A stretch of 64,000 nucleotides of DNA, taken from IMG/VR virus record IMGVR_UViG_3300042340_000379, positions 143,856-207,855 of that record. One strand, given 5' to 3'. This document shows positions 18,901-61,700 of the stretch, piece after piece. The stretch comes from a virus. Position 1 is the stretch's first letter. The number at the start of each line of letters is the position of its first letter. A model generated the notes under the pieces. The model searched no databases, was not told where the DNA came from, and saw nothing but the letters and a program-made list of their open reading frames with translations. A program made the position numbers and the translations under genes.

Positions 18901-21900
18901 TGGGCGGTTAAAAGAAGAGCAGCGCGTTATTAAAAAAACTCGTGAGAGAGTTTTTAAGCAAGAACGGGGTGCAAACTACCAAGCGTATAGACTTGATGGG
19001 CTTAGCCAAAGATATAACCATGCTCAAGCTGAGATATATGGTGCTAGAGATAACTCTCAACGAGAACTGAGAGAGCTAAATCCTGAACTCAATCGATTGC
19101 GCAAAGATACAAAATTTATGCAGCGGCAGTTTGTTCAAAACAAACTTCACCAGTTTGTTGTTGAAGGCCAGCACGTTTCTATCTTTAACAAAGAATTTAT
19201 TGCTGGAATTGGCGCACGCGATGGAGTTGTGCAAAGCGAGCTACGAAGCATGATTGCTCAAGCTCCTGAGGGATTTGTCGAAGGACTTAGCTCAGGAGAA
19301 ATTTCAGACCAAAACTACTATGACAAGTTTGTGTCAGTTCTAAGTAAAGTAGACCAGCAAGGTCAAAACATCTACAGAGCTGAGCTGGCCGGAATTGAAA
19401 GCGCAATGGGCCACGCTCTTAGAGATGGCTCAGGTTCTAGAAGCGATCAGCGTCAAATCAAAAAATACATGGGGCGGCGAGCTGCCTTTAACCAAACTCA
19501 GCAAATTGGGTTTGACTTCAAACCTCAAGAATTCGCTGCTCTTCAAAAGCTTCAATCACTGACTGGCTACGTTAACAGAGCGGGTGGCCCTAGCGGCGGC
19601 TCTATTGTTAACCAGCAGCACTCAATCCAAAACGTTGAGCGTCTAAAAAACAAACAAGTCTCTGAAGGCAACCAACTCTCACTAGCTCTTGATGGAAACC
19701 AGACCGCGCTAATTGTCTCAATGTATGGCCGGTTTGGCGTGCAGGGCGGTGACTTTGACGGTGACGCTTACCAGCTCGTCTTTGGATTTAGAGACATTCA
19801 AGAGTCCTTAGTTAAATCAATCAACAAACGGAATCAGATGGAAGATTCCAAATTGGCCCTTGAGCTTGAAATGGGGAGCGGGGAATATGGCAGAGATGTT
19901 CTTTTGCGTCGAGCCCAGCTTAGCAACCAAATTCGAGTTGAACAACAAGGAATTGACGGTCTAATCGGAAAACTTGATAACCAATTCCAAATGGCTGGAG
20001 AGCAGATAAGCCAAGGTGTTCGTCGTCACGTCTCTTCTTTAACAGGTGTTCCCTTGTCAATTATGTTGAACAAGGACGTGTACAGTGATGAACAAGTCTC
20101 TAATATGATCGAGCAGCAACGGGGGATTACGCCTGGCTTAACCGACTTTGGAGATTCTTATGGTGGCGAGGCCACGTCTTACGGCTTCTTATTCAACGAC
20201 ATTAACCAAGACCTTGGAAGTCTAAACGGAAGTCTTGGAGATTACCTAGACACTAAATTGGAAGGAAAGCCCTACGGATTAGACAAAGCTCAGCTTAGCC
20301 AATTTAAGCAGTTGACAGAAGAAGCCATGTCTAAACTTGACTTGGTAAACTCAAATGCTTCTGAACGAGCCCAAGCCTTTGGAGTAGAGTTGGGAACTCT
20401 AAATAACCTGCGCATGAGTTTGGATACCACCCAAAAGTTCATTCAGTCAGCGGCGGGTACAGTTCTTGACATGAAGTCTTTTGATTTAATGCAAGATGCA
20501 ATTGGTTATGTGGGTACTTCTCTAATCGGGGAAGGCTACAACGCAATCACCAGCATGATAGGCCGGTCTACCCTAGCGCGAACTTTAGCTCATGGACTTG
20601 GCGCTGAGTCAATGGTCGGCTTAGACACCGCAGCCCTAAATCTTGGAGGACAAATTCAAGAAAGACTTGATTATCTATTTGCTGGTGGAGAGAAAGCAAA
20701 TACGTCCAGCAATATTAAAGAGAAGTTCGCAGTCGATGAGATAAAACGCACCGCCTATTTTGCTCAAGAGAAAAGCCAACAAATTAGCGGTAAGCTGACC
20801 ATGATTCAGCAAATGATCCGAGACTCTCTAAAACCCAAAGAGGCTGGAGGTCTTATTGGAGCCATAGTTGATAACTCTGCAGATGGGGAAGCGTTCAGAG
20901 AAAAGTTTGACCGACTAGAGAAAAAGGAAGAGCGTTTAGACGCGCTACGAAACTTTGTGTCTACTAGAGCCGTTACCTCAATGGTAGATACAAATGAGCG
21001 GGGGCTCATCAACGCTTTTGGTGCCATCTTCTTAATGGCTGATTACACCAAGGAAAGTTCTCCTGAGAAAATGCTTAGCGACAAATCTGATCGCTATAGT
21101 GTTCTGCGCCAAACTCGAGAGCTATATGAAAAACAGTCTTCCAGGCTTCAGCAAGGTAAAGGTTTAAGTTCAGATTTAGATACTATCACGCGCCTCCGTC
21201 TTCAAGACCCAGAGTTTAGAGACAAGATGGTAAATGATGATGGGTTCCTAATCCGTCAGACCGTTGTTGACTTAATCAATAGTGCTACTGCACAAGAGAC
21301 AACCTCCAAATACTTAGGTTACGATGCTAATGATAGAGTTAGACAAGCCAACGTAATAAGAGAACAGTACATTGGTGCTTTAGCATCAGAGCGTGGACTT
21401 CTCGATGCTTCGTCTGACTTCTACTTTAAAAACGAGCAGCATCAAATGGCTATGATGAGTGCTCTTAATATCAAAGAACAGGACATTCTTGGCTATACTC
21501 AAGGCCAAGTTCAGAATGTATTTTCAGATAGTAATGCAGCTTTTAAAGCTTTAACGGAAAGAACATTTGTTGAGTCAACTTATCTAGGAATGGGACAGGA
21601 AGACTTAGAGTTCTCCAGAAATGTCATTCAGGCTGGTCGCTCCTTAGAGTTTATGGAGTTTGGGAACCAAATAGCATTTGCGCCTTTTGCAGCAGCTCAA
21701 AGCGAAAACCTTGTAGCTATAGAACAGTTAATGCGTCGGGGTAAATTAGATGACCCTGCTTTAATGAGAGAGGTTCAAATCAACAGCTCGGCAAGATTGT
21801 TTGATGCAATCGCCAAGGTCAGCACAAAACTTACCTCTCAGTATGGTTCTTTAGAATCAGCCATTAGTAAAGAGGAAGTGTATAAAGGCTATTCTCAAAT

Positions 21901-22999
21901 GGCAGAGCTGGCTGGAGTATTTGATGTTAGTCGTGATGAATCTAACATGCTTTCTTTAGCCATGGCAGCTAAACCTGACGGTAAGCAGTCTATCTTCGAG
22001 CAGCTTGCTGATTTGTCAGCTGGTCGCGCTAATGTTGAAGAGAAATATAACCAAATTTCAGATATTCACCAGGAAATGAGTACTGCTACTGGAACTCGTA
22101 AACAGTTTCTAGAGCAGCATCTAGCTCTACTTGAAGGTTCACTTGACTCTTATAGACAAGGAATTTCAACAAATGACACCAGCGCAGTAAGAACCGCACT
22201 GGCTGAAATTGGAAATAAAGAACGTCAATTTAGAACTGATCAGTTTAAAAAAGACGAGCGCGGCAGGCGGCTATTAATTCATAGCGCTGGAATGATGCAC
22301 GTCGCGTCAGGTTCTCAAAGTATGGGCGTGGTCAATACGCTTGGTCTGTTTGCAGCCCCTGTTGTTGGAGCTGCTCTTATGAGTGGCGCTGGATTAGATG
22401 AGCGGCTAGTCCTGGGCGGGTACGATTTAATGCAGGGTCTATCTACAGCTGAAGGATTTGCGGATAACAAAATGGCTCAGGCGACTAACAGCATGTTTAT
22501 CATGAGCCGATTACGCCAGCAAATGGCCGAGCAAGAAAGTCTATTTCTAGGTTCTGTAAAAGGCGTAGCGACAGAAGCACTTTACACAGGCCTAGCAGGG
22601 CTCGCCAGCCAAGCGTCCACCAGCCTTATGCGAGCAGCCGGGGCGCGGCAGGCAGCAGGAGGTTTAGGATCCGCACTTGCTGAAGCAGTCGTGACAGCGG
22701 CTGCTTTAGCTTTTTCTCGTAAAGGAAGCCAGTATGGCGTTCAAGACGAGGATTACAGTAGTCTAATGGCGCAATCTTTGTTAGACATGGCTCAGTCTAC
22801 AGAGAACATGATACAAGCTATGATTGAGAGGGCCCAAGACATTGAGGTCGAAACAGAAGACCAAATTGTCACGTTTGACTTTGATGCATCTATGGCACCC
22901 ACAGAATATGAAGAGCGGGTGACTGCTGGGTGGATTGAGTTCTCTGTTGCCTCTGATGAGTTTGATTCTGTCTACTCTGAAATTGGAAATTACGCTTAA
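12917..22999 (+). CDS. giant 3360-aa protein with RNA-polymerase-like DFDGD loop
   Basis: One continuous frame of 3360 residues. Residues 2279-2283 read DFDGD, preceded by GRFGVQGG and followed by AYQLVFGF, as in the catalytic loop of the double-psi beta-barrel that holds the Mg ions in multisubunit RNA polymerase beta-prime, in YonO-type single-chain polymerases and in the giant RNA polymerases of crAss-like phages. A long basic coiled coil lies at about 1934-2075, just before the barrel. The C-terminal 250 residues contain Ala/Gly-rich hydrophobic helices (GLFAAPVVGAALMSGAGL near 3143) typical of membrane-active or tape-measure segments. It lies beside the tail chaperone and no separate tape measure is visible, so a virion-packaged or injected polymerase, possibly doubling as tape measure, is the best guess. 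Alternative: a purely structural protein with a chance motif. Confidence 0.7.
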   Translation: MDPLFPELDPALIDNQNSEVREQIRRLEKSTPEDIARQELTTPDLNSIGISRGFRLHYGEVSDRPGTRYNMLGQKIYEPPTLAMESQVGFYEPVSVRANVSLDQSLQVRAVNAIDSINYGRSVLTGQQRTVTSGLNTMFGRQFRSLMYDQQVRAAGLMGLSREDTRALLGEPAVREGLYQDAGFRTPSLESIMENMGTGMPSAERISDINRMGFYADRYADPESVQKLYREVNQLKNALGDGIKSVEKRYAYRKVNGMYEKVLVGLKVGVRNYNDLFDGMGLYSGTSAPAVERETAFNFTVDSKGQVIELNTNRVISGSLMALGPSSISTIVGSSLIGGEGRRQSSSATALGLLATYARSSELEARHGVVDGVFNTMIAQGEYGALGRVFAEALVSRNEKYVASRGLKFGEVAGQMLSSVGHKDFKKGIHELIESISYRGLEYYSSLHTVFKESFDENTARMELFRNRQSLLTAAFDPLLNYTGGEGSRFDGLIDTTMKRVVDLIQSDSSTQRLKIAGQDVDISLFDDLKVAALNMSPTGRSAYDLRKSQVSRSILQLMMSPFLMPHESGYSGSQSSSRLGLFAMSETRGQRGMYELFAISPSKHTHGMKSTKPGEYYKPIGSQSAKSSVMKYIGGFYKFDDTAAKVAEFYETKTLFAGMPSLKRAKLDDIQIHMQKAGYKSSREIIEKYRAEMQLKEDKDIEVLLMPFRKPEQISQRLKNLVGGRPMLEIATGLRRAVMSQSGQQLRSYFSGGDYGVSLDVGKALSGNIPAALNDIQYQQMEQERSRIIAELGLDEKKITPRQQSELSRLLTSRMREIETQFNEGGGYIQGKAARLTMVGMGVNMLSDFMLVNQEYVNNTAFGYLHHSKFRVSATQNVRYEGVGRVTEADPYFDWKTNRLAEVFKAGTSIYLSPTPLKNERAMEILKKTAQSMRSEFLARGISKRESDAQVRRTLQSNFKFLESVDIKDGEVTNATMRAGAYSFDGNDMRFQGELVGSSLRLGMLPTNNRQRLGETGLSGATSLDFFDVKIPGVIRSVSKGLVTVANDINFAPSSGGYEADINFLVTSDIPSGSRSSSLTKGPWSMYESESFWARAREQAIQHSFVSKQTAQEGVFGILSPTAFKGYNYEAGLDILRDAESRRDLLAIPADQTAFLLGIAFMEKGEKGQRLKAAMREYAKTQSLGSSVGLLLEDVNSGSSIEKMRNLMLSTPDIIEFAGGQSLDQMGDYLAQRFETGDFDPIKKSLNRIVGKALDKSVQMEQYVEGQSSLVRTFQEGDFSVRSAGLVADVLNTTRQLIYGGMTVGDDPLQGYALVDKEKGARVDRFIEDKDFRAATLDIAQKMGVRSLLPSQLKLEGALSSLKEGDELYSQVESMLYLMHGHFSTSPLVARASNMLPSRILVAAGSEDAVALEFHYSLNLSKREFGMLRGTGVDIEKFTDLQAAYGVVATHGSANSTSRMMQVISPFSTDKTQAGVAKTMSRLIEGYNDFSGKFKFLGSVGNLSLLDEVVRSMVTGKTDRTLQLMASYDLANRALRHQKGLGQFTEQTVMNVAGAFNPGSLDLDSASFSQLADLANIYGVKGNTKEELAKGLRETGPILGRGIPYYGPSRNPFEIKRMAMARAVIDLSKRQKQKGHGSLVFGVTSDNEDVRDIMKRERLSAYGFGYSDFRQALDLVSDTQTGRLLSDGNGDKDHVQRIAGRLQDHDRSVELMMEKAAGTSDTESFVDVLYKVVSGAQQVIENTERGSDDYKRAERLRSEVYQTKSLLMPFVQTARDGSKGIISLYDPTEMGGQLRFTGTPAIRLGLDVLSKVPAQFEDHISEVVDRQRQIWEILPEFQSIMDRLTTGPIMDANLGEISVIEEMQRLAIQSQEDAALLFGSVMAQRSQGEKIKYPGVSFVAVADYLATPMEAFVGSRVMGTGLDQVVRDAQASLNGEERRNNRWEAERERLLKRAVTHSQSTEKSVQNKFKLAQRRRMELLRQRVNIRKNLNENVGRLKEEQRVIKKTRERVFKQERGANYQAYRLDGLSQRYNHAQAEIYGARDNSQRELRELNPELNRLRKDTKFMQRQFVQNKLHQFVVEGQHVSIFNKEFIAGIGARDGVVQSELRSMIAQAPEGFVEGLSSGEISDQNYYDKFVSVLSKVDQQGQNIYRAELAGIESAMGHALRDGSGSRSDQRQIKKYMGRRAAFNQTQQIGFDFKPQEFAALQKLQSLTGYVNRAGGPSGGSIVNQQHSIQNVERLKNKQVSEGNQLSLALDGNQTALIVSMYGRFGVQGGDFDGDAYQLVFGFRDIQESLVKSINKRNQMEDSKLALELEMGSGEYGRDVLLRRAQLSNQIRVEQQGIDGLIGKLDNQFQMAGEQISQGVRRHVSSLTGVPLSIMLNKDVYSDEQVSNMIEQQRGITPGLTDFGDSYGGEATSYGFLFNDINQDLGSLNGSLGDYLDTKLEGKPYGLDKAQLSQFKQLTEEAMSKLDLVNSNASERAQAFGVELGTLNNLRMSLDTTQKFIQSAAGTVLDMKSFDLMQDAIGYVGTSLIGEGYNAITSMIGRSTLARTLAHGLGAESMVGLDTAALNLGGQIQERLDYLFAGGEKANTSSNIKEKFAVDEIKRTAYFAQEKSQQISGKLTMIQQMIRDSLKPKEAGGLIGAIVDNSADGEAFREKFDRLEKKEERLDALRNFVSTRAVTSMVDTNERGLINAFGAIFLMADYTKESSPEKMLSDKSDRYSVLRQTRELYEKQSSRLQQGKGLSSDLDTITRLRLQDPEFRDKMVNDDGFLIRQTVVDLINSATAQETTSKYLGYDANDRVRQANVIREQYIGALASERGLLDASSDFYFKNEQHQMAMMSALNIKEQDILGYTQGQVQNVFSDSNAAFKALTERTFVESTYLGMGQEDLEFSRNVIQAGRSLEFMEFGNQIAFAPFAAAQSENLVAIEQLMRRGKLDDPALMREVQINSSARLFDAIAKVSTKLTSQYGSLESAISKEEVYKGYSQMAELAGVFDVSRDESNMLSLAMAAKPDGKQSIFEQLADLSAGRANVEEKYNQISDIHQEMSTATGTRKQFLEQHLALLEGSLDSYRQGISTNDTSAVRTALAEIGNKERQFRTDQFKKDERGRRLLIHSAGMMHVASGSQSMGVVNTLGLFAAPVVGAALMSGAGLDERLVLGGYDLMQGLSTAEGFADNKMAQATNSMFIMSRLRQQMAEQESLFLGSVKGVATEALYTGLAGLASQASTSLMRAAGARQAAGGLGSALAEAVVTAAALAFSRKGSQYGVQDEDYSSLMAQSLLDMAQSTENMIQAMIERAQDIEVETEDQIVTFDFDASMAPTEYEERVTAGWIEFSVASDEFDSVYSEIGNYA

Positions 23000-32961: not shown

Positions 32962-33078
32962 TTTAAGTAAGGGGTAAACGCAACCTCTTTAGTTTAAGTT
33001 GTAAGCCGCAATATAGAAAGGGTTTTTAAAAACAACATCAAAATAAGTGCTACTTTAACTCCACACTATTTCAAGAAA

Positions 33079-33118
33079 GGGGCCGCTAGATCTATTAGAT
33101 CTAGCGGCCCCTTTTTTT
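33079..33118 (+). terminator. strong rho-independent terminator
   Basis: A 15-base perfect stem (GGGGCCGCTAGATCT / AGATCTAGCGGCCCC) with loop ATT followed by seven Ts. It isolates the tandem-repeat region from the minus-strand gene at 32578-32961, although no plus-strand gene directly precedes it. Confidence 0.75.
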
Positions 33119-33577: not shown

Positions 33578-33949
33578 ATGTCTATCTCTTCTTTTCTCAT
33601 TCCATCCATTAAAGGACTAGTCAAGCTAGGACTGCAAGACAGCAACCCACTGTGGGTGCATGACTGTATTCATGCACACGTATCTACACAACTACCACCC
33701 ATACCCATGGGTACACACCAGGTGACTGGTGTTGATGGTCTATCCATCAAGGAGTTCTGGGGTACACACCCACACACACCTACCTACCCAGGTGAACTAG
33801 ATGAGGCACGGGTTGGGATACATCAGTTCCTAGCCTCACCACTAGGTAGCCCTTGCTACCTAGCTAGGTACATCTACTGGTGTACCTACCTAGCCACACA
33901 GGGTATCAACCCTGTGATGGTGACCTATCACCACTGGAGGTCTATGTAA
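33578..33949 (+). CDS. hairpin-rich hypothetical gene, 123 aa
   Basis: Real start supported by AAGGAG 9 bases upstream of ATG 33578. The 123-residue protein is rich in His, Pro, Tyr and Trp with no recognised domain. Unlike its neighbours, the DNA is rich in CCTACC and CACACA and contains a chain of short perfect inverted repeats within the frame, e.g. GTGCATGA..TCATGCAC (33656-33677), TTGATGG..CCATCAA (33732-33750), CTAGGTAGC..GCTACCTAG (33842-33863) and CACAGGGT..ACCCTGTG (33897-33916). The codon choice may be imposed by this structure. Confidence 0.55.
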   Translation: MSISSFLIPSIKGLVKLGLQDSNPLWVHDCIHAHVSTQLPPIPMGTHQVTGVDGLSIKEFWGTHPHTPTYPGELDEARVGIHQFLASPLGSPCYLARYIYWCTYLATQGINPVMVTYHHWRSM

Positions 33950-33998: not shown

Positions 33999-34058
33999 GC
34001 CTTATATACACCCCCCTACACCATGGTGGTTTAACTAGGTTCGATTCCTAGGTAGGGC
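33999..34058 (+). other. tRNA-like fragment with T-arm
   Basis: CTAGG TTCGATT CCTAG (34035-34051) matches a canonical T-arm, including the GGTTCGATTCC core, and the following GTAGGGC can pair with GCCTTAT at 33999-34005 as a 7-bp acceptor stem. The 29 bases between are too short for D- and anticodon-arms. It is a tRNA remnant, a tRNA-like element or a possible attachment site; not a functional tRNA as seen. Confidence 0.4.
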
Positions 34059-34061
34059 CTT

Positions 34062-34119: not shown

Positions 34120-34515
34120 ATGCAATCACTCACTTCCCTTACAGCAGAACGGGATTTTAAAAAGGCCTGTTCAGAAAAGTACCAAATGGTTTCCCTAGAC
34201 AGGCGGCTTGTTTGTCAGGTAGCTCGAAAGCTACCTAAACAGCGCCGGATAAAAGCTATGGCCCACCTGCTAGAAGAGTACGGCAGGCAAGAGGCAGTTC
34301 CGACAGGCGAGCTAGTGGATAAGCTTTTTGCCCTGGATGCCGTTTATAAAATTAACGACTTGGTAATCGGGGTAGATGTGACCCTCGATAAATCTCGAAT
34401 TGTAGAAAAACGGCAAAAACTGTCTTCCTTATCTGAAGCCCACAAAGCTTTAGGTATCGACAGAACAATAGTGTTTTGTCCAAAGATCCATAAGGATCTT
34501 CAGTCTGCTCTCTAA
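34120..34515 (+). CDS. hypothetical protein, possibly nuclease-like, 131 aa
   Basis: Start at ATG 34120, preceded by AGAGAAC. The first 60 residues are helical and basic. Residues 62-100 (KINDLVIGVDVTLDKSRIVE) have a strand ending GVDVT followed by a charged helix and a HKALGIDRTIVFCPK strand, reminiscent of PD-(D/E)XK-fold nucleases, but the full catalytic set is not evident. The DNA contains further hairpins, e.g. AGGTAGCT..AGCTACCT near 34219 and AAGATCC..GGATCTT near 34484. Located ahead of a duplicated boundary cassette. Confidence 0.55.
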   Translation: MQSLTSLTAERDFKKACSEKYQMVSLDRRLVCQVARKLPKQRRIKAMAHLLEEYGRQEAVPTGELVDKLFALDAVYKINDLVIGVDVTLDKSRIVEKRQKLSSLSEAHKALGIDRTIVFCPKIHKDLQSAL

Positions 34516-35637: not shown

Positions 35638-38600
35638 ATGAAATCCTTCACCAAATCTCTGAATTCTTTTGTTACCCGCTCCTTCTCTGTGGGTAAGCGC
35701 CAAATGATCTCTAAGGTCAAAATCGTTCACTCTAAGCGCGAGTTCATCTCGCGTGTTTCTGGCACCTTTCGCCAGCGCTTGAACCCTGCTACTCCAAAGT
35801 CCATTTTTGCTTGGGACGATGTTCAGCTCTCCTTAGCCTTTACTTATGGCCAAGGTTCTCTAGGAATCAAAGCTGACCGCGCCAACGCTGGCATTGGGTT
35901 TGGTAGTGATACCAAACCTAAATCTAAATCTGTTAAGTCCGATTCCATCAAAATCGCACACACCTTTAAGGAGATCCTCGCCCAAACCAAAGCTACCGCT
36001 GTCAAAGTCTTCGAGGCCATTTCCACCGTTTCTAAACTGATTACTCCCGATCTTCTGCTCTCTTCTACAGGTAAGCAGCTCTATGGAGCTGCTCTTAAAA
36101 ACCGGATTGCCAAACTTGTTCGTGAGGGCTACGCAGCCCCTGTTTCTCAACCTGCAGCGGTAAAGGCCGTTGACTTCATGGCGCTTGCTCAAGAGCGCTG
36201 CGCCCAAAGCCTTGCTGCGATCGAAGCAGCTATGGGCTTCACATCCACGGGCACCGTTGTGGCCATGCTTCAATCCGGCCAGGAGCCTGCGCCCATTGCG
36301 CGGCAGTCCGCCTCAAATATGGAGAACATCTCATTGTTTGAACTCAGGGCAAAAGAATTTCCAGCTCCTTCTGTCGAGGAGCTAATGTCTGACCTAAATG
36401 GCGATCGCGCCACCCGCGCTGAAAAGTGCAAAGCCATCTTGGCTAAGCACAACCTCAACACAGTTGGTGAGCTGATCGCTCGCGGCATGGTGTCTCGCAC
36501 CCGCAAAGACTTCTGGCTCGATAGTGCAAGCACTGCGTTCAGTGTGATGCTACTGGGCCACACTCTTGGCCAAATGCCCGCGCCTCTGGACTTCAAGGCT
36601 GGGAATACCTACCTGGTAGGTTTCCCTCTGTTTGATCGCACCTCTGGCGACAAGCAGATTTCCCCGTACAAGTGCGTCATAGGAGATATCGATCTCCTGA
36701 TGGCGTCTGTTCGTAGAGAAGAGCACGACATAAAGAACCTATCTTCTCCTGCTACCAAGAAGGTGTTTAAGAAGCACTTTAAGGTGCTAGAAGATAACTG
36801 CAAAGCCCTGGGCCTGTGGTTGTCTAAGGACGAAGTGGCTAACATGGCCGCTGCGTTGGCCATTAATGAAGTGGCTACCAAGCCCACCACTTTCGCGGTG
36901 CTGGCTTCCCACCTCTGCGAAGTCCTTGATGCTATGGGCATGATGCCCAACCGCGTGTATGCGGTGAATGCTGCGTGGAACCTTCCCCGCTACAAAGCGG
37001 ATCGCGTTATTGTGCGTAAGTTGGTAACCGCACTGCTGCGGGCCCAAGAGGGCATCGGCATGACAGGGTTCAAGTTCATCGACATGTCCACCAGCGAGCA
37101 AACTGGTGAGCTATTTGATGAAGTCGTTATCTGTGGCCAACGCTTTGTCATGGATGACGAAGGCGTTATCTTTGATGACGCAGGTACATCAAAACGGCTA
37201 AACCAGATAATGTTGGCTGCTCCCATTAAGGTAGGCCGCAGTCTACACCCCAACGAGTTCTCTATCTTGAGCGCTCACGACGTGTTGTTGTATCTGCTGG
37301 ACAACATTGTGCTGCCCATGCTCAACCGAAAGGATGTCAAATCTGACAAGAGCTTGGAAATCAGCCGTGTTGAGGAAACCAACGCTCGTGCTGCCCAGTC
37401 CATCAAATCGTTTATTGGCAAATCCATGCCTCTAAACGAGCGGGCTGTTGCGCTTGGTGTTGAAGATGCTGCCTCCAGCATTCTGACCAGCGGCGAAATC
37501 AGCTGCGTTGTCAAGTGGCATCAATCTCTCTTCCGTCGCAACATTGCGGCTGAGGGTTCAGCAGAGATCGCCATCTTCAAAGAAGGCATGCTAGTTGGGC
37601 CTGATAGTCCCTACAAACGCTCGGCTGATGCTACCGAGTATATGATCTTTAGCCAAATGGAGTTAAAGACCTCCACCAATTTCACCGACTATCACCCTCT
37701 CATCGAGCCTATGATCGCTCATGGCAAAGTGATTCAGCCTTTTGGCAACATGAATGCTGTAAGCCTTTCTGCTCACGGTACTCACTATGCCAACCTTGAT
37801 GTGAGCATTCAGAAAGAAGCTGTCAAAGCTTTCTGGGCTAACCAAGGCCTTGATGAGCAACAGCTGCGCTCTAAGTTCAACCTTGAAGGTGTAGTCGGTG
37901 ATGTGTGGATGCACATTGCTGAAGAAACCCTCAACTTCTTGTCCTACAAGGGCTCTAAGCGTTTCAAGCGCTCGGCTAACTTGTACGCTCAAGTCACCAG
38001 CTTCGCGTTTGAAGAGACCAGCCGCTTCCAGTGGTCTGGTCACGTTGATCACCAGATCACCGGCCTGGCGCTCAAGGCTGTGTTAGCTCCTAGCTACGTT
38101 TTCTCTGGGCCTGGTATGGCCTATATGAACTCGCACAAGCGTGCTCAATACGAGATGCGCTACCCCTTGGCTGGTGGCATGCATGACTACTACGATCGCG
38201 CTGCTGTGTTCAGTAACTTCGCGATTGATGATACTGCTATCATCACCAATCCTCTCACGGGCTGGAGCCATATTGACCTGGACATCAAAGTCCGGGAAGG
38301 GCAGGAGACTGGCTTGTTTATCGTGAACGAACATGGCCATCAGGTTCCTCTAAAAGCTGAGCACAATGGTGTGCTTTGCAAAATTCGTTTCCGCACTGTC
38401 GATAAGTTCTCCGTTAACGGCGTATTGGAGTGTCGCCTCTTTTATAAAGTGTCTGAGTACGACTTCAAACTGCGGGCTGGCTATAAAGCCATGACTACCT
38501 ATCATGACGGGTCGATCTTTGACCATAACGCCTACGCTCCCGAGTGGGACATCATCATCCCTGGTGATGCCAACAAAACCCTCGACCTTTTAACTTGCTT

Positions 38601-41127
38601 CCTCCCCGAGGCTGCTGAGTCATTCGGTCGCGCTCCTGAGGGCACTTTGGTTGATGGCGTTGATGTACGTGCCCTGCTGCGTTCACTTAATGCTGAGGCA
38701 TTTGGTCGTGAGGGCATCATTAAAGATGCGCCCAACGACAGCCTCTATGTCAACATGCTCATGTTGAATGAGGGTCGCTACGAGCAACTCCGTAAGTTGT
38801 TCATGACCGCATTTGGTCAAGTTATATGGATGAGCGTTGAGTCTGTAGAAATGCAGATCTTTGTCAACAAATTCTATTCTGCCAACGTTGCTGGTGGTGG
38901 CAAATGGCGCGAGCTGTCTGAAGCTGAGCTGGAAACAGTTGCTAAAGATGGTCTACCCAAGGGTGCTCGCGGCTTCTGCGACACCGCTGATATCAATGAC
39001 CAGAGCAACATTCTGGTTACCTACACTGAGAACGGGAAGTGCATGTCCCTTCACCGTCAGTGGGTCTACGCTTCCACGCCCGAGCTTGGCATGTACATGC
39101 TAGGTAAGCCTGAGTACACAACTGTGAGCCAGGCCGTTTCTGAATCCAGCGTTATGGGCAACGTCATCTATGACCTGGCCCTACGTAGCAACAAAGCTGC
39201 GTTGGAATTCGTCAACCGTGGCGAAATCAACCGCGTGCGCTACTCTCTTATCCATCGCCTAGCAAAAGGCCTTCCTATTGCTATTGATGGCGGCGAAATT
39301 CCTGTGATGAAAATCCAGGGCTCGATCGCTGAAATCGTGGGTAGTTGCAGCGCCAACTTGGCTGCTGCATACGCGGAAGGGCCTAACCAGTTCTTCCAAG
39401 TACTCCTGGAAATCTGCCAGGACAAAGTGCTGCGCTTTGAAGCCGACAACAGCACCTGGGTTAGCATCTACCTCCCTCTTCTCGCTTCTTACGGCGGGCA
39501 GGATCTTGAATCCAACGAAGGCATGACTCTTGCTAGCAAAGTCTATGAGTTGATGACCTCTTGGTACAACGGGGCCGACCCTAAGTCTCAGGGCATCAAA
39601 GTCATCGCGGGGGAAATCTCCAAGATGATGAATAAGTTGGCCGATGGTGGCCGGATGCAGAAGTCTTTGACCTACGGCCCTAAAGGCGTAGGTTTCAAGG
39701 TCGCCGCATTGCCCAACATTCCTACTGGGGAAGTGTGGGTCTATGCTGGCGGTGAAGTCTTTGCCAAAATGCGCAAGCTGTTTGGCAAAGACTTTGCTGA
39801 AAACGCCAAAACTGGCGATAGCTACATCGGTCTGGTGCGTGCGCCTATGACTCGTGTTGCTGTGCTCAAAGTCGTAGTCATCACCAAAGATGACAACCGC
39901 GCCTTGGCCTACAAACTCAATGGCGTGCAGGGCTACATCAGCCCATTCTCCCAGTATTTCAACATGGGAGACTTTGACGGTGATGGTGACTTGTCTATGG
40001 ACGTTAGTGATATCGTCCGTAGCGGTGAGCTTCAACAGGACTCTTTTGCGTCCATGCTCAAGTTCCAGCGGGAAACCCTGGGCTACGACATGATGCTACC
40101 CGAGTTCTGGAAGTCTGCTGCACCCGAGCAGTACTACGCCGACCACTTCTATGTACAGAGCTACACCTCTGTCATGGCTAAAATCGGTGGGCGCGGCCTG
40201 AACTTGGAATCTTCCGAGAAGGCCAACGTCATCACCCGTGCTCAACTGCTAGCCGGTGAGCACGGTGCAATCGGTCAGCAGACCGGCTATGTGTCCAGCT
40301 CATATCAAACCCAGTTCTTTATCACGCTGGCAGCTGAGATTCTGGGTCACCACAACGTAGCTGCATTCGAGTGGATTAAAGGCTCCACCTATCAAACCCA
40401 GGCCTTGTACGAAGTAGCGTTAGGCGGCTACTCTCCTGATATGTGCCGCGTGGCGTTTGGTCTTCTTGACCGCGCCTTCCGTTTGAGCACCACTCAAGAT
40501 TGGTGGCTAAAGCGTGTTGACGCTGAGGTTGCCGGTATGTTGCTTGACGGTACCAAGCACACAGCTTCTTCTCTCCTAGGTACCGAGCCTATGGATAAAG
40601 AGAAGACCCTGTTCACTTCCCTGAGTGAAGGCCAAGTGTTCCCCGCAATGCAGGCTTGCGGTTTTGGCTGGAATGGCTTTGAGGATGACCGCAACCAAGT
40701 GCAACAGTTTGTTAAAGCTGCTGCGCTCGCTGGCGTTGCTAAAAAGCGTGTCAGCGAAATCAAGAACGATGATGCTGGAATTGGTAGCGGCACCTACCAA
40801 AAGCTGGTGAAAACCTACGGCAAGAACATGGCCCTTGTCATGTGTCTTGCTCAACGTCTAATGGACATCAGCCGTAATAAGGCTGAGTTTGGTAAGGACT
40901 ACGACAACGAACTCCGCGCTGAACTCGACCAAATGCTCAAAGGTGTTAAAAGCGATTCTATTTCCGTCGATCTCTATCGTCGGATTGAGAAGACCCTAGA
41001 CGACTCTGTGTCCGCAGAAGTCGTAAGCTATGACAGCGCTGCTATCAACAAGCTTTGCCGCTTTGTTGAAACCGAAGACGCTGCTCCCATTACTCTGGAG
41101 GTTGCTGCCCAAGTTATCGCCAATTAA
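35638..41127 (+). CDS. 1829-aa protein with RNA-polymerase-like DFDGD loop
   Basis: ATG 35638 follows GGAGAAC. Near residue 1445 the sequence reads NMGDFDGDGDL, and 44 residues before it is VRAPMTRVAV (R1401-A-P). In cellular RNA polymerase beta-prime the same order is NRAPTLHRL, then NADFDGD about 35 residues later; three Asp (1445, 1447, 1449) would hold the catalytic Mg. The N-terminal 30 residues are basic. No zinc finger or bridge helix was recognised by eye. The likely type is a single-chain YonO-like DNA-dependent RNA polymerase; alternatives are a related RNA polymerase fold of unknown template. Followed at once by repeat array B. An early-region polymerase is a reasonable inference. 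Confidence 0.7.
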   Translation: MKSFTKSLNSFVTRSFSVGKRQMISKVKIVHSKREFISRVSGTFRQRLNPATPKSIFAWDDVQLSLAFTYGQGSLGIKADRANAGIGFGSDTKPKSKSVKSDSIKIAHTFKEILAQTKATAVKVFEAISTVSKLITPDLLLSSTGKQLYGAALKNRIAKLVREGYAAPVSQPAAVKAVDFMALAQERCAQSLAAIEAAMGFTSTGTVVAMLQSGQEPAPIARQSASNMENISLFELRAKEFPAPSVEELMSDLNGDRATRAEKCKAILAKHNLNTVGELIARGMVSRTRKDFWLDSASTAFSVMLLGHTLGQMPAPLDFKAGNTYLVGFPLFDRTSGDKQISPYKCVIGDIDLLMASVRREEHDIKNLSSPATKKVFKKHFKVLEDNCKALGLWLSKDEVANMAAALAINEVATKPTTFAVLASHLCEVLDAMGMMPNRVYAVNAAWNLPRYKADRVIVRKLVTALLRAQEGIGMTGFKFIDMSTSEQTGELFDEVVICGQRFVMDDEGVIFDDAGTSKRLNQIMLAAPIKVGRSLHPNEFSILSAHDVLLYLLDNIVLPMLNRKDVKSDKSLEISRVEETNARAAQSIKSFIGKSMPLNERAVALGVEDAASSILTSGEISCVVKWHQSLFRRNIAAEGSAEIAIFKEGMLVGPDSPYKRSADATEYMIFSQMELKTSTNFTDYHPLIEPMIAHGKVIQPFGNMNAVSLSAHGTHYANLDVSIQKEAVKAFWANQGLDEQQLRSKFNLEGVVGDVWMHIAEETLNFLSYKGSKRFKRSANLYAQVTSFAFEETSRFQWSGHVDHQITGLALKAVLAPSYVFSGPGMAYMNSHKRAQYEMRYPLAGGMHDYYDRAAVFSNFAIDDTAIITNPLTGWSHIDLDIKVREGQETGLFIVNEHGHQVPLKAEHNGVLCKIRFRTVDKFSVNGVLECRLFYKVSEYDFKLRAGYKAMTTYHDGSIFDHNAYAPEWDIIIPGDANKTLDLLTCFLPEAAESFGRAPEGTLVDGVDVRALLRSLNAEAFGREGIIKDAPNDSLYVNMLMLNEGRYEQLRKLFMTAFGQVIWMSVESVEMQIFVNKFYSANVAGGGKWRELSEAELETVAKDGLPKGARGFCDTADINDQSNILVTYTENGKCMSLHRQWVYASTPELGMYMLGKPEYTTVSQAVSESSVMGNVIYDLALRSNKAALEFVNRGEINRVRYSLIHRLAKGLPIAIDGGEIPVMKIQGSIAEIVGSCSANLAAAYAEGPNQFFQVLLEICQDKVLRFEADNSTWVSIYLPLLASYGGQDLESNEGMTLASKVYELMTSWYNGADPKSQGIKVIAGEISKMMNKLADGGRMQKSLTYGPKGVGFKVAALPNIPTGEVWVYAGGEVFAKMRKLFGKDFAENAKTGDSYIGLVRAPMTRVAVLKVVVITKDDNRALAYKLNGVQGYISPFSQYFNMGDFDGDGDLSMDVSDIVRSGELQQDSFASMLKFQRETLGYDMMLPEFWKSAAPEQYYADHFYVQSYTSVMAKIGGRGLNLESSEKANVITRAQLLAGEHGAIGQQTGYVSSSYQTQFFITLAAEILGHHNVAAFEWIKGSTYQTQALYEVALGGYSPDMCRVAFGLLDRAFRLSTTQDWWLKRVDAEVAGMLLDGTKHTASSLLGTEPMDKEKTLFTSLSEGQVFPAMQACGFGWNGFEDDRNQVQQFVKAAALAGVAKKRVSEIKNDDAGIGSGTYQKLVKTYGKNMALVMCLAQRLMDISRNKAEFGKDYDNELRAELDQMLKGVKSDSISVDLYRRIEKTLDDSVSAEVVSYDSAAINKLCRFVETEDAAPITLEVAAQVIAN

Positions 41128-41133
41128 TCGCTA

Positions 41134-41286
41134 GGGCCCTATAGGGCCCGCAAAAGTCCGATTGGGGCCCAACGCGGGCCCTTTACGTCCCGTGAAAGTC
41201 CTTTTAGGGCCCGCGTTGGGCCTTTCATGTCCCGTCGAGGGCCCTAAACGTCCCGCAAAAGTCCGATTAGGGCCCGTCAAGGGCCC
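41134..41286. repeat. GGGCCC phased array B
   Basis: Begins 7 bases after the stop of the 1829-residue gene. Unit GGGCCCGCAAAAGTCCGATT then GGGCCCAACGCGGGCCCTTTA; GGGCC blocks recur every 10-11 bases and complete units every 21. About 150 bases. It ends before a leader at 41287-41618, and there is no gene in it. Confidence 0.85.
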
Positions 41287-41507
41287 AACCCCTATTTTGC
41301 TGCGCTCTACCCTGCGCGGTTAGAGGGGGAATGTTAGTTTTATTTGTTTGTTGTTAGCAGGTTTAGCTAATGGCAGTGGGTCTGTGTGTTATGCGGTTGG
41401 GCGGCAGGATGTAGATGCTAATAGGTATTTATGGCAGCACTATTATTTAATTGGAGCCTGGTCGCAGCGATCGCGCTGTGTATCTGGCTCGACAAATGAT
41501 TTGCCGA

Positions 41508-41543
41508 CTGCCGTCCCCTGTGCGCGATGCGTTGGGACGGCAG
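41508..41543 (+). repeat. CTGCCG/CGGCAG hairpin in the leader 41287-41618
   Basis: Stem CTGCCGTCCC / GGGACGGCAG (10 bp, 16-base loop). The 330-base stretch after array B holds no credible gene; an 81-codon frame at 41348 runs through it but crosses this hairpin and has no ribosome site. A second CGGCAGTTTGTAATCC lies at 41583. These are probably leader structures or attenuators for the gene at 41619. Confidence 0.6.
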
Positions 41544-41618
41544 CGGGAGAAAGAAACGCAAATTGCCGTGACTTAATGTCCGGCAGTTTGTAATCCGTTG
41601 AATTAGAGACTTGCTGCT

Positions 41619-42299
41619 ATGTCTACTTCCTCTTCTGTCTACACCGAAAATTTCTCCCTAGAGCACGAAGTCACTTGCAGCCACTTTGCTGCGCAGCTCG
41701 CAGCCAAAACTGAAGGTCGCTGTCTGGAAGTCTCTCGTGAGCTCGTCCGTGGGAAAGATCACGACGCGCTCTTTAGCCTAAGCTGCATTTTCCCAACCGA
41801 GAGCGATAATGGGGTTGTAGTACAAATCGCTCTCAGTGGGTACCTAGATGCGTCTAGTATGAACATCAATGGAAACCTGTATAGGATGGCCGTGCCGTTC
41901 ACAAAAGGTGACCAGCGCCAGACTGACAAGCCCATGCGAATCAAGACTGGGGCTATGAAGCCTCAGGAGTTCAAAGGTCTTCTCTCTGACGAGACCATTC
42001 TCGAGTTGCAGAAGTGGGCGGAGTTGAATGCTGGCGCAAAACGCGCTAGCTTTGACCTGGAGATTCCTGAAGGGGTGGATCTGTATTTCACTTTGTCCTT
42101 CCGTAAAGGAAAGGAAAACCCTTATGCAGTAGACCCGCTGCATATCCTGAAAATGGATATCATTGGTGGTCTCTTGCAGGAGGTTGAGAAGCCCTATGGG
42201 ACAAAAGTTGGGGGTGTGGAGGATTCCCGTTTAGCTGCAAAGAGAGCTGCCCTTGCTGCTTCCACCCTGCCCACGCCTGCTGACGATGACGTGATGTAA
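41619..42299 (+). CDS. hypothetical protein, 226 aa
   Basis: Preceded by a long structured leader (41287-41618) rather than a simple SD. The protein is mixed alpha/beta: an acidic N-terminus, a strand region with SLSCIFPTESDNGVVVQIAL, a helical middle and an Ala/Asp-rich tail. No family recognised. The stop is followed by a CTGCCG..CGGCAG hairpin at 42313-42343, a boundary element shared with its neighbours. Confidence 0.6.
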   Translation: MSTSSSVYTENFSLEHEVTCSHFAAQLAAKTEGRCLEVSRELVRGKDHDALFSLSCIFPTESDNGVVVQIALSGYLDASSMNINGNLYRMAVPFTKGDQRQTDKPMRIKTGAMKPQEFKGLLSDETILELQKWAELNAGAKRASFDLEIPEGVDLYFTLSFRKGKENPYAVDPLHILKMDIIGGLLQEVEKPYGTKVGGVEDSRLAAKRAALAASTLPTPADDDVM

Positions 42300-42312
42300 G
42301 GTTCTATGCAAG

Positions 42313-42346
42313 CTGCCGTAATCCTACAATAGGGTTGCGGCAGTTT
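42313..42346 (+). terminator. CGGCAGTTT boundary hairpin
   Basis: CTGCCG pairs with CGGCAG across an imperfect stem, followed by TTTGTATT. It is one of a family of gene-boundary hairpins (also at 41508, 43184 and 43628). Confidence 0.6.
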
Positions 42347-42369
42347 GTATTCACTCTTGGAGAAATCCC

Positions 42370-43176
42370 ATGAAAGCTATGACCATCATCCTGTCTAATG
42401 CCTTGACTGAGCTAGTTTCTTCTGCAGGAAACTGGGACGAGCAGAAAAAGGTAGAGACCTTTCAAGAGTCACTAGAAGAGTTATCTCGCAAAGGGGAGCT
42501 TCCCCTTTGCGAGATAACGCTAGACATAAAAGAGAGCCGTAATTATTACGGCTTGATCGCCTATCTCGAAAATGTCAATGTCTCTCTCTTTGAGAGAGGC
42601 TTTCGGCAGACGACTGTCGAGAGCTTCAAGGTCACGACACCCTATTCCATCAAGGAGGTGAGGAACAAAATCCTCAAATCCTTGCTTACCAATTCAGCGG
42701 TTGTCCCTGCTGAATTGGTAAAGTGGCTCAAATTTGAGCCACTGGTGTTCGGGCTAGACAAGAATTTCGTTCACGGACTCGCACCAGGTCACTACTCAGG
42801 GGAAATGCTGATAGTGAAAAAGGGGCTGTTCGCAAGAACACCCTGCTATCCCATGCCCATTAAAGATACGGAAGGCTGGGAATCAGCCTTCATTGATGGA
42901 ACGTATGTATACAAGACGCCCTCGTCTTGGAGTGCGAGTTTGGTCTCGCGTGAAGATGAGGATAAGGCTGAGGCTAAGGCTGAAGCCGATGCCTCAATCC
43001 AGCAGATTGAGAAGGCCCAGCAATACGTAGGCTGGACAATCAGCGCGATCGCCAGTGGAATAGTCACTCTTACCTCTCCAACTGGAGAAGTAACTCAATT
43101 GACTTCCAGACACAGTGTCTGGAATTATGGGGATAATTCCGAAGACTGGATTGATATAGGGGGGATCTCAATCTAG
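42370..43176 (+). CDS. hairpin-packed hypothetical gene, 268 aa
   Basis: ATG 42370 with GGAG about 8 bases upstream. The 268-residue protein has helices at both ends, a helical Ala/Glu segment near 200-220 and no known domain. The DNA is exceptional: perfect stems lie throughout the frame, e.g. 18 bp at 42480-42518 (loop GCT), 13 bp at 42686-42721, the 22-base palindrome at 42722-42743, 10 bp at 43104-43124 and 8 bp at 43121-43140. The hairpins are in different frames and not repeats of one another, so the signal belongs to the nucleic acid rather than the protein. Followed by an AAACTGCC..GGCAGTTT terminator-like hairpin. Confidence 0.65.
   Translation: MKAMTIILSNALTELVSSAGNWDEQKKVETFQESLEELSRKGELPLCEITLDIKESRNYYGLIAYLENVNVSLFERGFRQTTVESFKVTTPYSIKEVRNKILKSLLTNSAVVPAELVKWLKFEPLVFGLDKNFVHGLAPGHYSGEMLIVKKGLFARTPCYPMPIKDTEGWESAFIDGTYVYKTPSSWSASLVSREDEDKAEAKAEADASIQQIEKAQQYVGWTISAIASGIVTLTSPTGEVTQLTSRHSVWNYGDNSEDWIDIGGISI
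42480..43140. repeat. chain of about 13 perfect inverted repeats
   Basis: Stems (bp) read by eye: 42480-42518 (18), 42535-42553 (9), 42582-42598 (7), 42659-42676 (6), 42686-42721 (13), 42722-42743 (11), 42827-42840 (5, GCAA loop), 42871-42891 (8), 42912-42929 (7), 42934-42949 (5), 43075-43088 (6), 43104-43124 (10), 43121-43140 (8). All except the long-loop one have loops of 0-7 bases. The chance of this density in 660 bases is very small. Confidence 0.8.
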
Positions 43177-43183
43177 TTTCCAT

Positions 43184-43217
43184 AAACTGCCACTGGCGAT
43201 CGCGCTGGCGGCAGTTT
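43184..43217 (+). terminator. AAACTGCC/GGCAGTTT hairpin with HIP1 loop
   Basis: AAACTGCC (43184-43191) pairs with GGCAGTTT (43210-43217); the loop region contains GCGATCGC. It is followed by GTATTC and resembles the gene-boundary hairpins at 42313 and 43628. Confidence 0.6.
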
Positions 43218-43550: not shown

Positions 43551-43636
43551 CCACTACGCCTGTCCCTATGCCTAGACTCCCTGCCCGTATAGCCCAGGCG
43601 ATCGCCAGCCTGGGCATAACTACCCTACTGCCGTGA
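43547..43636 (+). CDS. possible 29-aa ORF coupled to upstream gene
   Basis: ATG overlaps the stop of the previous gene (ATGA). It codes for 29 residues, Pro/Ala/Leu-rich, and its last codons lie in the stem of the hairpin at 43628-43652. Too short to be sure; the overlap is its main support. Confidence 0.25.
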   Translation: MTTTPVPMPRLPARIAQAIASLGITTLLP

Positions 43637-43655
43637 CTAGGAGTCACGGCAGTTT
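43628..43655 (+). terminator. CTGCCGTGACT/AGTCACGGCAG hairpin
   Basis: 11-bp perfect stem with AGG loop followed by TTTGC. It belongs to the CGGCAG boundary hairpin family and overlaps the end of the 29-aa frame. Confidence 0.65.
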
Positions 43656-44957: not shown

Positions 44958-45152
44958 ATGCAAGACCTCAAACTTCCCGGCTCTCTTCTTATCCGCCAAG
45001 CACGGCAGTGGAGAAGAGTCGATCACTCCCTCACCCACGCTTTACTCAAAAGCACCCAACATCTTCTCGAACGGCGAGGGATGACCGAGATTGTTTTCGA
45101 TCGCCTGGTCGAAAGACAGCCAAAAACAGCTAGGGCCCTTGGCGGGCCCTAA
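44958..45152 (+). CDS. hypothetical protein, 64 aa
   Basis: TAGGAG 6 bases before ATG 44958. A basic, helical protein (Arg, Leu, His). The last codons (ALGGP and the stop) are inside the first unit of repeat array C, so the array supplies the C-terminus. No function recognised. Confidence 0.55.
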   Translation: MQDLKLPGSLLIRQARQWRRVDHSLTHALLKSTQHLLERRGMTEIVFDRLVERQPKTARALGGP

Positions 45153-45291
45153 ACGGCCCGTGAAAGTCCTTTTAGGGCCCGCAAAAGTCCGATTAGGGCC
45201 CGCGTCGGGCCCTTCATGTCCCGTGACGGGCCCTAAACGGCCCGCGAAAGTCCTTTTAGGGCCCGCGTTGGGCCACTTAGGGCCCTAAGGG
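45133..45291. repeat. GGGCCC phased array C
   Basis: GGGCC blocks every 10-11 bases, unit about 21 bases (GGGCCCGTGAAAGTCCTTTTA then GGGCCCGCGTTGGGCC). The repeat translates into a 7-residue period in any frame, a sign of its 21-base repeat. It begins inside the last codons of the preceding gene. Confidence 0.85.
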
Positions 45292-47161: not shown

Positions 47162-47179
47162 TGTGGCTAAAATAGGGTC

Positions 47180-47353
47180 GGGCCCTAAACGGCCCGCGAA
47201 AGTCCTTTTAGGGCCCGCGAAAGTCCTTTTAGGGCCCGCGTTGGGCCACTTAGGGCCCGTCAAGGGACGTAAAGGGCCCGCGTTGGGCCGTTTAGGGCCC
47301 GTGAAAGTCCGTTCATGTCCCACGCTGGGCCCTAAACGGCCCGCCAAGGGCCC
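47180..47353. repeat. GGGCCC phased array D
   Basis: About 170 bases of the same unit, including GGGCCCGCGAAAGTCCTTTTA twice and GGGACGTAAAGGGCCCGCGT. No gene in it. The 217 bases after it (47354-47570) hold the CATTCACGGCAGG and CAGTCACGGCAGG motifs and a CCCTTAGCTTCGGCTGAGGG hairpin, but no credible gene. Confidence 0.85.
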
Positions 47354-49353: not shown

Positions 49354-49415
49354 GACTGCCAACCGGACTTTAGGGCAAACAGCCCCAGTTTCCTGGAGTA
49401 GCAACAGAATAGCTA

Positions 49416-49640
49416 GGGCCCGCGTCGGGCCCTAAAAGGCCCGTGAAAGTCCGATTAGGGCCCACGTCGGGCCCTAAAAGGCCCGTGAAAGTCCGATTAG
49501 GGCCCGCCAAGGGCCATGAAGGGCCCGCGTCGGGCCGTTTAGGGCCCGTGAAAGTCCTTTTAGGGCCCGAGGGGGTAAAGTTGGGCCCTTGGCGGGCCGT
49601 TTAGGGCCCGTGAAAGTCCTTTTAGGGCCCGCCAAGGGCC
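49416..49640. repeat. GGGCCC phased array E, longest
   Basis: About 225 bases, the longest of the seven arrays. It contains near-perfect tandem copies of the 42-base double unit AAAAGGCCCGTGAAAGTCCG ATTAGGGCCCACGTCGGGCCCT and shows unit sequences repeated exactly, so it has recently expanded. No gene in it. Confidence 0.85.
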
Positions 49641-52742: not shown

Positions 52743-52895
52743 GGGCCCTAAAAGGCCCGTCAAAGTCCTTTTAGGGCCCGCTGTGGGACGTTTAGGGCCC
52801 GTCAAAGTCCTTTTAGGGCCCAACGTGGGCCTTTTAGGGCCCGTCAAAGTCCTTTTACGTCCCGCCAAGGGCCGTTTAGGGCCCGCGTTGGGCCC
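52743..52895. repeat. GGGCCC phased array F
   Basis: About 150 bases of the unit GGGCCCGTCAAAGTCCTTTTA alternating with GGGCCCGCTGTGGGACGTTTA. Immediately 3-prime of a terminator and about 45 bases before the gene at 52942. No gene inside. Confidence 0.85.
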
Positions 52896-57929: not shown

Positions 57930-58072
57930 GGGCCCGCAAAAGTCCTTTTAGGGCCCGTCAAGGGCCTTTTACGTCCCGACGAGGGCCCTAAAGGGCCCGC
58001 AAAAGTCCTTTTAGGGCCCGTCAAGGGCCTTTTAGGGCCCGCAAAAGTCCTTTTAGGGCCCTAAAAGGGCCA
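57930..58072. repeat. GGGCCC phased array G
   Basis: Unit GGGCCCGCAAAAGTCCTTTTA and GGGCCCGTCAAGGGCCTTTTA in alternation; about 143 bases starting right after the stop of the previous gene. Similar to array B. No gene inside. Together with arrays A to F it makes seven arrays in 25 kb. Confidence 0.85.
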
Positions 58073-61661: not shown

Positions 61662-61700
61662 ACAAATCAACCGCCGAGGATTCCTCGGCGGTTGATTTGT
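61662..61700 (+). terminator. 19-bp palindromic hairpin, likely terminator
   Basis: ACAAATCAACCGCCGAGGA and its reverse complement around one T; the T-rich 3-prime arm ends GATTTGT. It follows the 59-aa gene and isolates the PolA gene's leader. Confidence 0.75.

Follow-up and report, generated by a model that had tools for sequence, protein, structure and literature searches.

Protein-coding genes in a cyanophage lineage with transcripts predicted to fold into consecutive hairpins

Why would a gene that keeps an open reading frame be saturated with hairpins? This question was raised by a 268-codon gene at positions 42370 to 43176 (plus strand) of a 64,000-nucleotide window, the whole stretch of DNA analyzed here, which covers bases 143856 to 207855 of a 207,855-bp IMG/VR virus record (IMGVR_UViG_3300042340_000379, hereafter G000). 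The major capsid protein of this phage is about 30% identical to that of Microcystis phage Ma-LMM01 and 32% identical to that of a Microcoleus phage. Another relative of the capsid gene (34%) lies on a contig of the cyanobacterium Elainella saxicola, and the cyanobacterial HIP1 palindrome GCGATCGC occurs 37 times against 2 expected. It is a jumbo-sized cyanophage.

We first examined whether the hairpins were present as described. The first-pass annotation had reported about 13 mostly perfect, mutually unrelated inverted repeats filling the frame, and this observation was confirmed. The frame is open, with an upstream GGAG. The 18-bp perfect stem with a 3-nt loop (42480 to 42518) and the 22-nt perfect palindrome with 11-bp arms (42722 to 42743) are exactly where they were reported. 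We also found perfect stems of 9 bp with a 1-nt center (42535 to 42553), 7 bp with a 3-nt loop (42582 to 42598), 13 bp with a 10-nt loop (42686 to 42721), 8 bp with a 5-nt loop (42871 to 42891), 10 bp with a 1-nt center (43104 to 43124), and 8 bp with a 4-nt loop (43121 to 43140), as well as a pair of 14-nt arms with 86% complementarity and a 6-nt loop (42651 to 42684), all on the plus strand. The stems are not copies of one another. This separates them from mobile palindromic elements (REP, RPE, and similar), which also place hairpins inside bacterial or phage sequence, some in frame, but whose copies share sequence.

Next, we compared the gene to shuffled controls, a test that had been proposed along with the original observation. 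Seven perfect stems of at least 8 bp with a loop of at most 20 nt were observed, compared to means of 0.48 in synonymous shuffles, 0.23 in codon-order shuffles, and 0.26 in dinucleotide shuffles, with 0 of 300 reaching 7 in each. When synonymous shuffles also preserved dinucleotide counts, the stem score was 58 against a mean of 9.2 and a maximum of 22 in 300. No homologue of the protein was found in the phage collection, IMG/VR, PHROGs, or Pfam (one Pfam hit fell below its cutoff) or in the two related IMG/VR records found first. An AlphaFold model of the protein alone was uninformative (pLDDT 38.5).

While scanning the rest of the phage, we found that this gene is the most hairpin-dense long ORF of the record but not the only one. 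A second small gene (33578 to 33949, plus strand, 123 codons) is similarly saturated, with a sense-strand minimum free energy (MFE) z of −6.7. Between the two lies an 1,829-amino-acid gene (35638 to 41127, plus strand) that is clearly enriched, with a stem score of 83 against about 33 to 35 expected and a sense z of −6.2. This giant gene carries an NMGDFDGDG motif and is RNA-polymerase-like in its DxDGD motif. GDxDGD is invariant in four relatives, while searches of Pfam, PHROGs, and PDB returned no polymerase hit and a model of the giant-gene core was of low confidence (pLDDT 40), so the resemblance to a polymerase rests on the motif. Several genes inside the G000 block are not structured, and the gene at 41619 to 42299 (plus strand) is only weakly so (sense z of −2.0).

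Three diverged relatives showed the same arrangement. G002 (IMG/VR 3300010354_000044; capsid 82% and giant gene 34 to 38% identical) is hairpin-rich in the syntenic stretch at 61.7 to 79.4 kb, and G004 (3300035681_000001) and G006 (3300043447_000710) are hairpin-rich around their copies of the giant gene. Outside the blocks, these genomes are near background. The small block genes mostly have no homologues. Gene calls outside annotated records were simple longest-ORF calls.

To determine which molecule carries the signal, we pooled 58 block ORFs from the four phages. The predicted fold of the sense strand was 7.0 kcal/mol per 100 nt more stable than that of synonymous shuffles (median z of −6.1) and that of the antisense strand 6.0, whereas 110 other ORFs of the same phages gave 1.7 (median z of −1.7) and 1.5. 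The sense strand was deeper in 45 of 58 block ORFs (Wilcoxon P = 4e-6), with no significant difference in the other ORFs (P = 0.15). Stems with one mismatch had G·U 45 times and A·C 11 times, compared to 5.2 and 4.4 in shuffles (binomial P = 7e-5), and block base composition had no strand skew. Since a G·T mismatch of the coding strand is a G·U pair in the sense RNA but A·C in the antisense, the sense RNA is the selected molecule. This case rests on the pooled data. The 268-codon gene alone shows no strand bias (sense z of −6.6, antisense z of −7.6; no G·U and one A·C mismatch stem), and in G000's own block the count is only 6 to 3. MS2, used as a positive control for the G·U bias, was too short to tell (3 versus 3).

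Loop lengths peaked at 4 nt (45 seen, 2.3 expected), with no loop-sequence consensus and no codon register. Windows starting at codon 1 showed no excess (−0.09), rising to −3 to −4 per 48 nt further in. Thus, the first ~48 nt (about 16 codons), the landing zone of the ribosome, are left open, as translation needs. All uninterrupted helices in the predicted structures were under 20 bp. With dinucleotide-preserving synonymous shuffles, 139 stems of at least 8 bp were seen against 31.8.

We then asked how the stems are built. Codon-order shuffles scored 284.5, synonymous shuffles 365.9, and the real genes 1271. About 92% of the excess therefore comes from synonymous choice and a little from the amino acids (synonymous over codon-order ratio of 1.29, compared to 1.05 in other genes). 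Orthologous genes within the clade keep structure but carry their stems in different places. For example, the block gene at 34120 to 34515 (plus strand) has a 37% identical orthologue in G002, and both are structured with stems not at the same places. In orthologues of the giant gene, stems did not coincide beyond chance overall. Of eleven orthologue comparisons, one reached 0.01 and one 0.05, not consistently across stem-length thresholds. A 57% identical paralogue pair in G004 keeps some stems, one with a T-A to C-G double change, and has rebuilt others. This is suggestive, but the counts are too few for significance. Searches with the major capsid protein and the giant gene for relatives close enough for a covariation test gave only diverged phages or short fragments without the block.

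These data bear on the two readings offered by the first-pass annotation, that protein and structure are both selected or that a hairpin-generating mutational process acts here. That interpretation was partly supported: the first reading is supported, but the unit is a gene block in a phage lineage rather than one gene, and the selected strand is the sense RNA. A mutational process alone, such as template switching or quasi-palindrome correction at DNA hairpins, would account for long and nearly perfect stems that differ in each relative, occur in all three codon registers, and bend the proteins slightly towards stems, as well as for the equal folding of both strands in the 268-codon gene. However, such a process should be strand symmetric and blind to the translation start. 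It does not predict the preference for G·U over A·C, the deeper sense strand, the spared start region, or stem building mostly by synonymous codons. We consider it very unlikely as the sole cause, although it may still supply raw material.

As controls, the same method gave −1.4 (Ma-LMM01), −1.7 (T4), −2.3 (crAss001), −3.1 (N4), and −9.0 (MS2) kcal/mol per 100 nt. The blocks (−5.1 to −9.6) are in the range of this single-stranded RNA (ssRNA) phage. As in the system reported in 2004 (cited in PMC6563262), the folding excess is spread over coding sequence rather than placed in single conserved elements. The differences are that these are double-stranded DNA (dsDNA) tailed phages, that the property is confined to one gene block, and that it consists of consecutive short perfect hairpins (stem score ratio well above the 1.67 of MS2) and not long-range folding. 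The blocks work like GORS but, being part of dsDNA phage records and confined to one block, were not classed as GORS. No earlier description was found in the open literature searched, which covers few subscription papers.

Selection on local mRNA folding in coding sequences has been reported across the tree of life (PMC7063772). Such selection leaves an unstructured initiation zone with stronger folding further in. The effect in the blocks has this form but is several-fold larger, visible as perfect hairpins, and limited to one block, while neighboring genes of the same phage show the ordinary slight effect. This resemblance would fit hairpins that pace ribosomes to regulate output or cotranslational folding. 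However, pacing should favor particular positions, whereas orthologous genes carry stems at unrelated positions and genes of all kinds in the block are affected, so we regard this reading as unlikely.

A role in transcription is also possible, though improbable. If the block were copied by a fast polymerase uncoupled from ribosomes, local hairpins could keep nascent RNA from re-pairing with the template (R-loops) or assist elongation. The block is centered on a polymerase-like gene, the hairpins are local, and cyanobacteria are not known to encode Rho. Against this, no evidence indicates which polymerase transcribes the block, and other phages with their own polymerases (N4 and crAss001) show only a slight excess.

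We next examined whether the property follows the protein or the block. AcrIII-1 family (STIV B116-like ring nuclease; PF08960) genes lie in the G004 and G006 blocks, with matches of 87.4 and 40.7 bits against a curated cutoff of 26; ring nuclease activity, the cleavage of cyclic tetra-adenylate, is inferred from this match. Both genes are structured (change in MFE of −7.3 with z of −3.6, and −13.0 with z of −6.7). Of ten homologues elsewhere, eight lie between +1.8 and −4.3 and two reach −6.4 and −6.5. This implies that structure goes mostly with the block, not the protein. An ORF of G002 (positions 15282 to 15668 of locus L018, which holds its block) showed subthreshold similarity to Csx3, a ring-nuclease family, that was not significant (E of 0.02 to 0.05). 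The same block encodes a CCA/poly(A) polymerase head-domain protein (PF01743; L018 18611 to 19321), and G002 also has a 2,859-amino-acid fusion joining a Dda-like helicase, a DxDGD core, and NADAR and macro domains in one frame (L018 5363 to 13942).

In Ma-LMM01, RNA sequencing placed the early class in gp054 to gp063 (PMC5780444). The adjoining gp064 is a distant homologue of the giant gene (hhalign 89%, E of 2e-6). We found that gp064 to gp067 are more structured than the rest of that genome (median of −5.2 against −1.2; P = 1e-5), while gp054 to gp063 are not significantly so (P = 0.10). A 24-ORF stretch around the homologue in a further phage, G008, is modestly enriched (P = 0.002). The early assignment of our blocks is therefore by synteny and partial.

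Taken together, we believe that the hairpins are selected secondary structure of translated mRNA. The computations themselves establish that, in four diverged phages of one cyanophage lineage, a block of fast-evolving genes around a giant DxDGD-motif gene is tuned, mostly by synonymous codon choice, so that the sense transcript is predicted to fold into consecutive local hairpins while its first ~16 codons stay open. Because the particular stems are not conserved, structuredness as such seems to be what is kept. The rest is our inference: that the block is an early host-takeover region with mRNAs made while host defenses are intact, and that compact hairpins with little exposed single strand hinder single-strand-specific RNases and guide-RNA binding by RNA-targeting immunity, such as type III CRISPR, while ribosomes unwind them. 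In this view, the mRNA is armored to the density seen in ssRNA phage genomes. Type III CRISPR detects foreign RNA (PMC12830947, PMC7213978), and the predicted ring nucleases in two of the blocks fit hosts that use it, although this is circumstantial. Work cited in PMC13307933 reportedly shows that RNA structure modulates Cas13 activity. Single-strand RNases are an equally good selective agent, and we could not separate the two. We place RNA-level selection at about 0.88 and a protective purpose, given that, at about 0.55, or roughly 0.5 for the whole reading. A bolder hypothesis, which we consider unlikely but not excluded, is that whole coding sequences were rewritten into hairpin chains specifically to defeat RNA-guided immunity alongside an enzymatic anti-CRISPR in the same block, so that the message structure would be a passive counterdefense.

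Strong ordered RNA structure across coding sequence is regarded as a trait of RNA viruses, whose genome is the RNA. Its presence in one gene block of a DNA phage lineage, beside unstructured genes of the same genomes, separates genome-level from mRNA-level causes and gives a built-in control. If the purpose is protection from RNases or RNA-guided immunity, it would be a passive counterdefense written into synonymous codons. Codon-usage analyses of such blocks are also shaped by RNA folding.

While inspecting the sequences between block genes, we found that most block genes in G000, G002, G004, and G006 are preceded by a terminator-like GC hairpin with a T run, then a short phage-specific repeated leader and a ribosome-binding site. 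Next to the 268-codon gene, an intergenic hairpin (CTGCCG..CGGCAGTTTG; 42306 to 42350, plus strand) lies between the preceding stop and the ribosome-binding site of the gene, another of the same kind follows the gene (AAACTGCC..GGCAGTTT; 43184 to 43217, plus strand), and a third of the same kind has a 12-bp stem and a 3-nt loop (43627 to 43653, plus strand). G002 carries a repeated intergenic RNA element, GACC-loop-GGTC-NTTAAATA (L018 1676, 2196, 3505, 4094, 4213, 4659, and 5326), whose loop pairs with varying downstream sequence, an apparent H-type pseudoknot. The second stem pairs in 5 of the 6 copies tested. The element had no Rfam match, and Rfam searches of both block regions gave only subthreshold matches. 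These repeated leader elements, and the fact that the block is defined as a set, would fit hairpins that serve as many binding sites for one phage RNA-binding protein, for storage, export, or packaging of early mRNA. However, the absence of a loop consensus and of shared stem sequence in the 268-codon gene makes this doubtful.

tRNA T-arm-like hairpins (GGTTCGATTCC type) without a full tRNA also lie between block genes (window 34033 to 34060; L018 1731, 2259, 2759, and 3560). A tRNA/tmRNA scan found none in the window or in block loci L018, L089, and L098 and three ordinary tRNAs in locus L019, outside the G002 block.

Elsewhere in the window, a 3,360-amino-acid protein (12917 to 22999) has a second GGDFDGD motif, with no Pfam or PHROG match and weak similarity to Ma-LMM01 gp080. 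Two 19-bp perfect stems with a 1-nt center lie at 33076 to 33114 and 61662 to 61700, the first followed by a T run. Dispersed GGGCCCTAAA / TTTAGGGCCC palindromic repeat clusters occur at 45142 to 45288, 47179 to 47217, 49414 to 49506, 52743 to 52779, and 57983 to 58068. Finally, a phage without the block, G007, has a single hairpin-dense gene (40814 to 41857, minus strand), with a stem score of 53 against 13.
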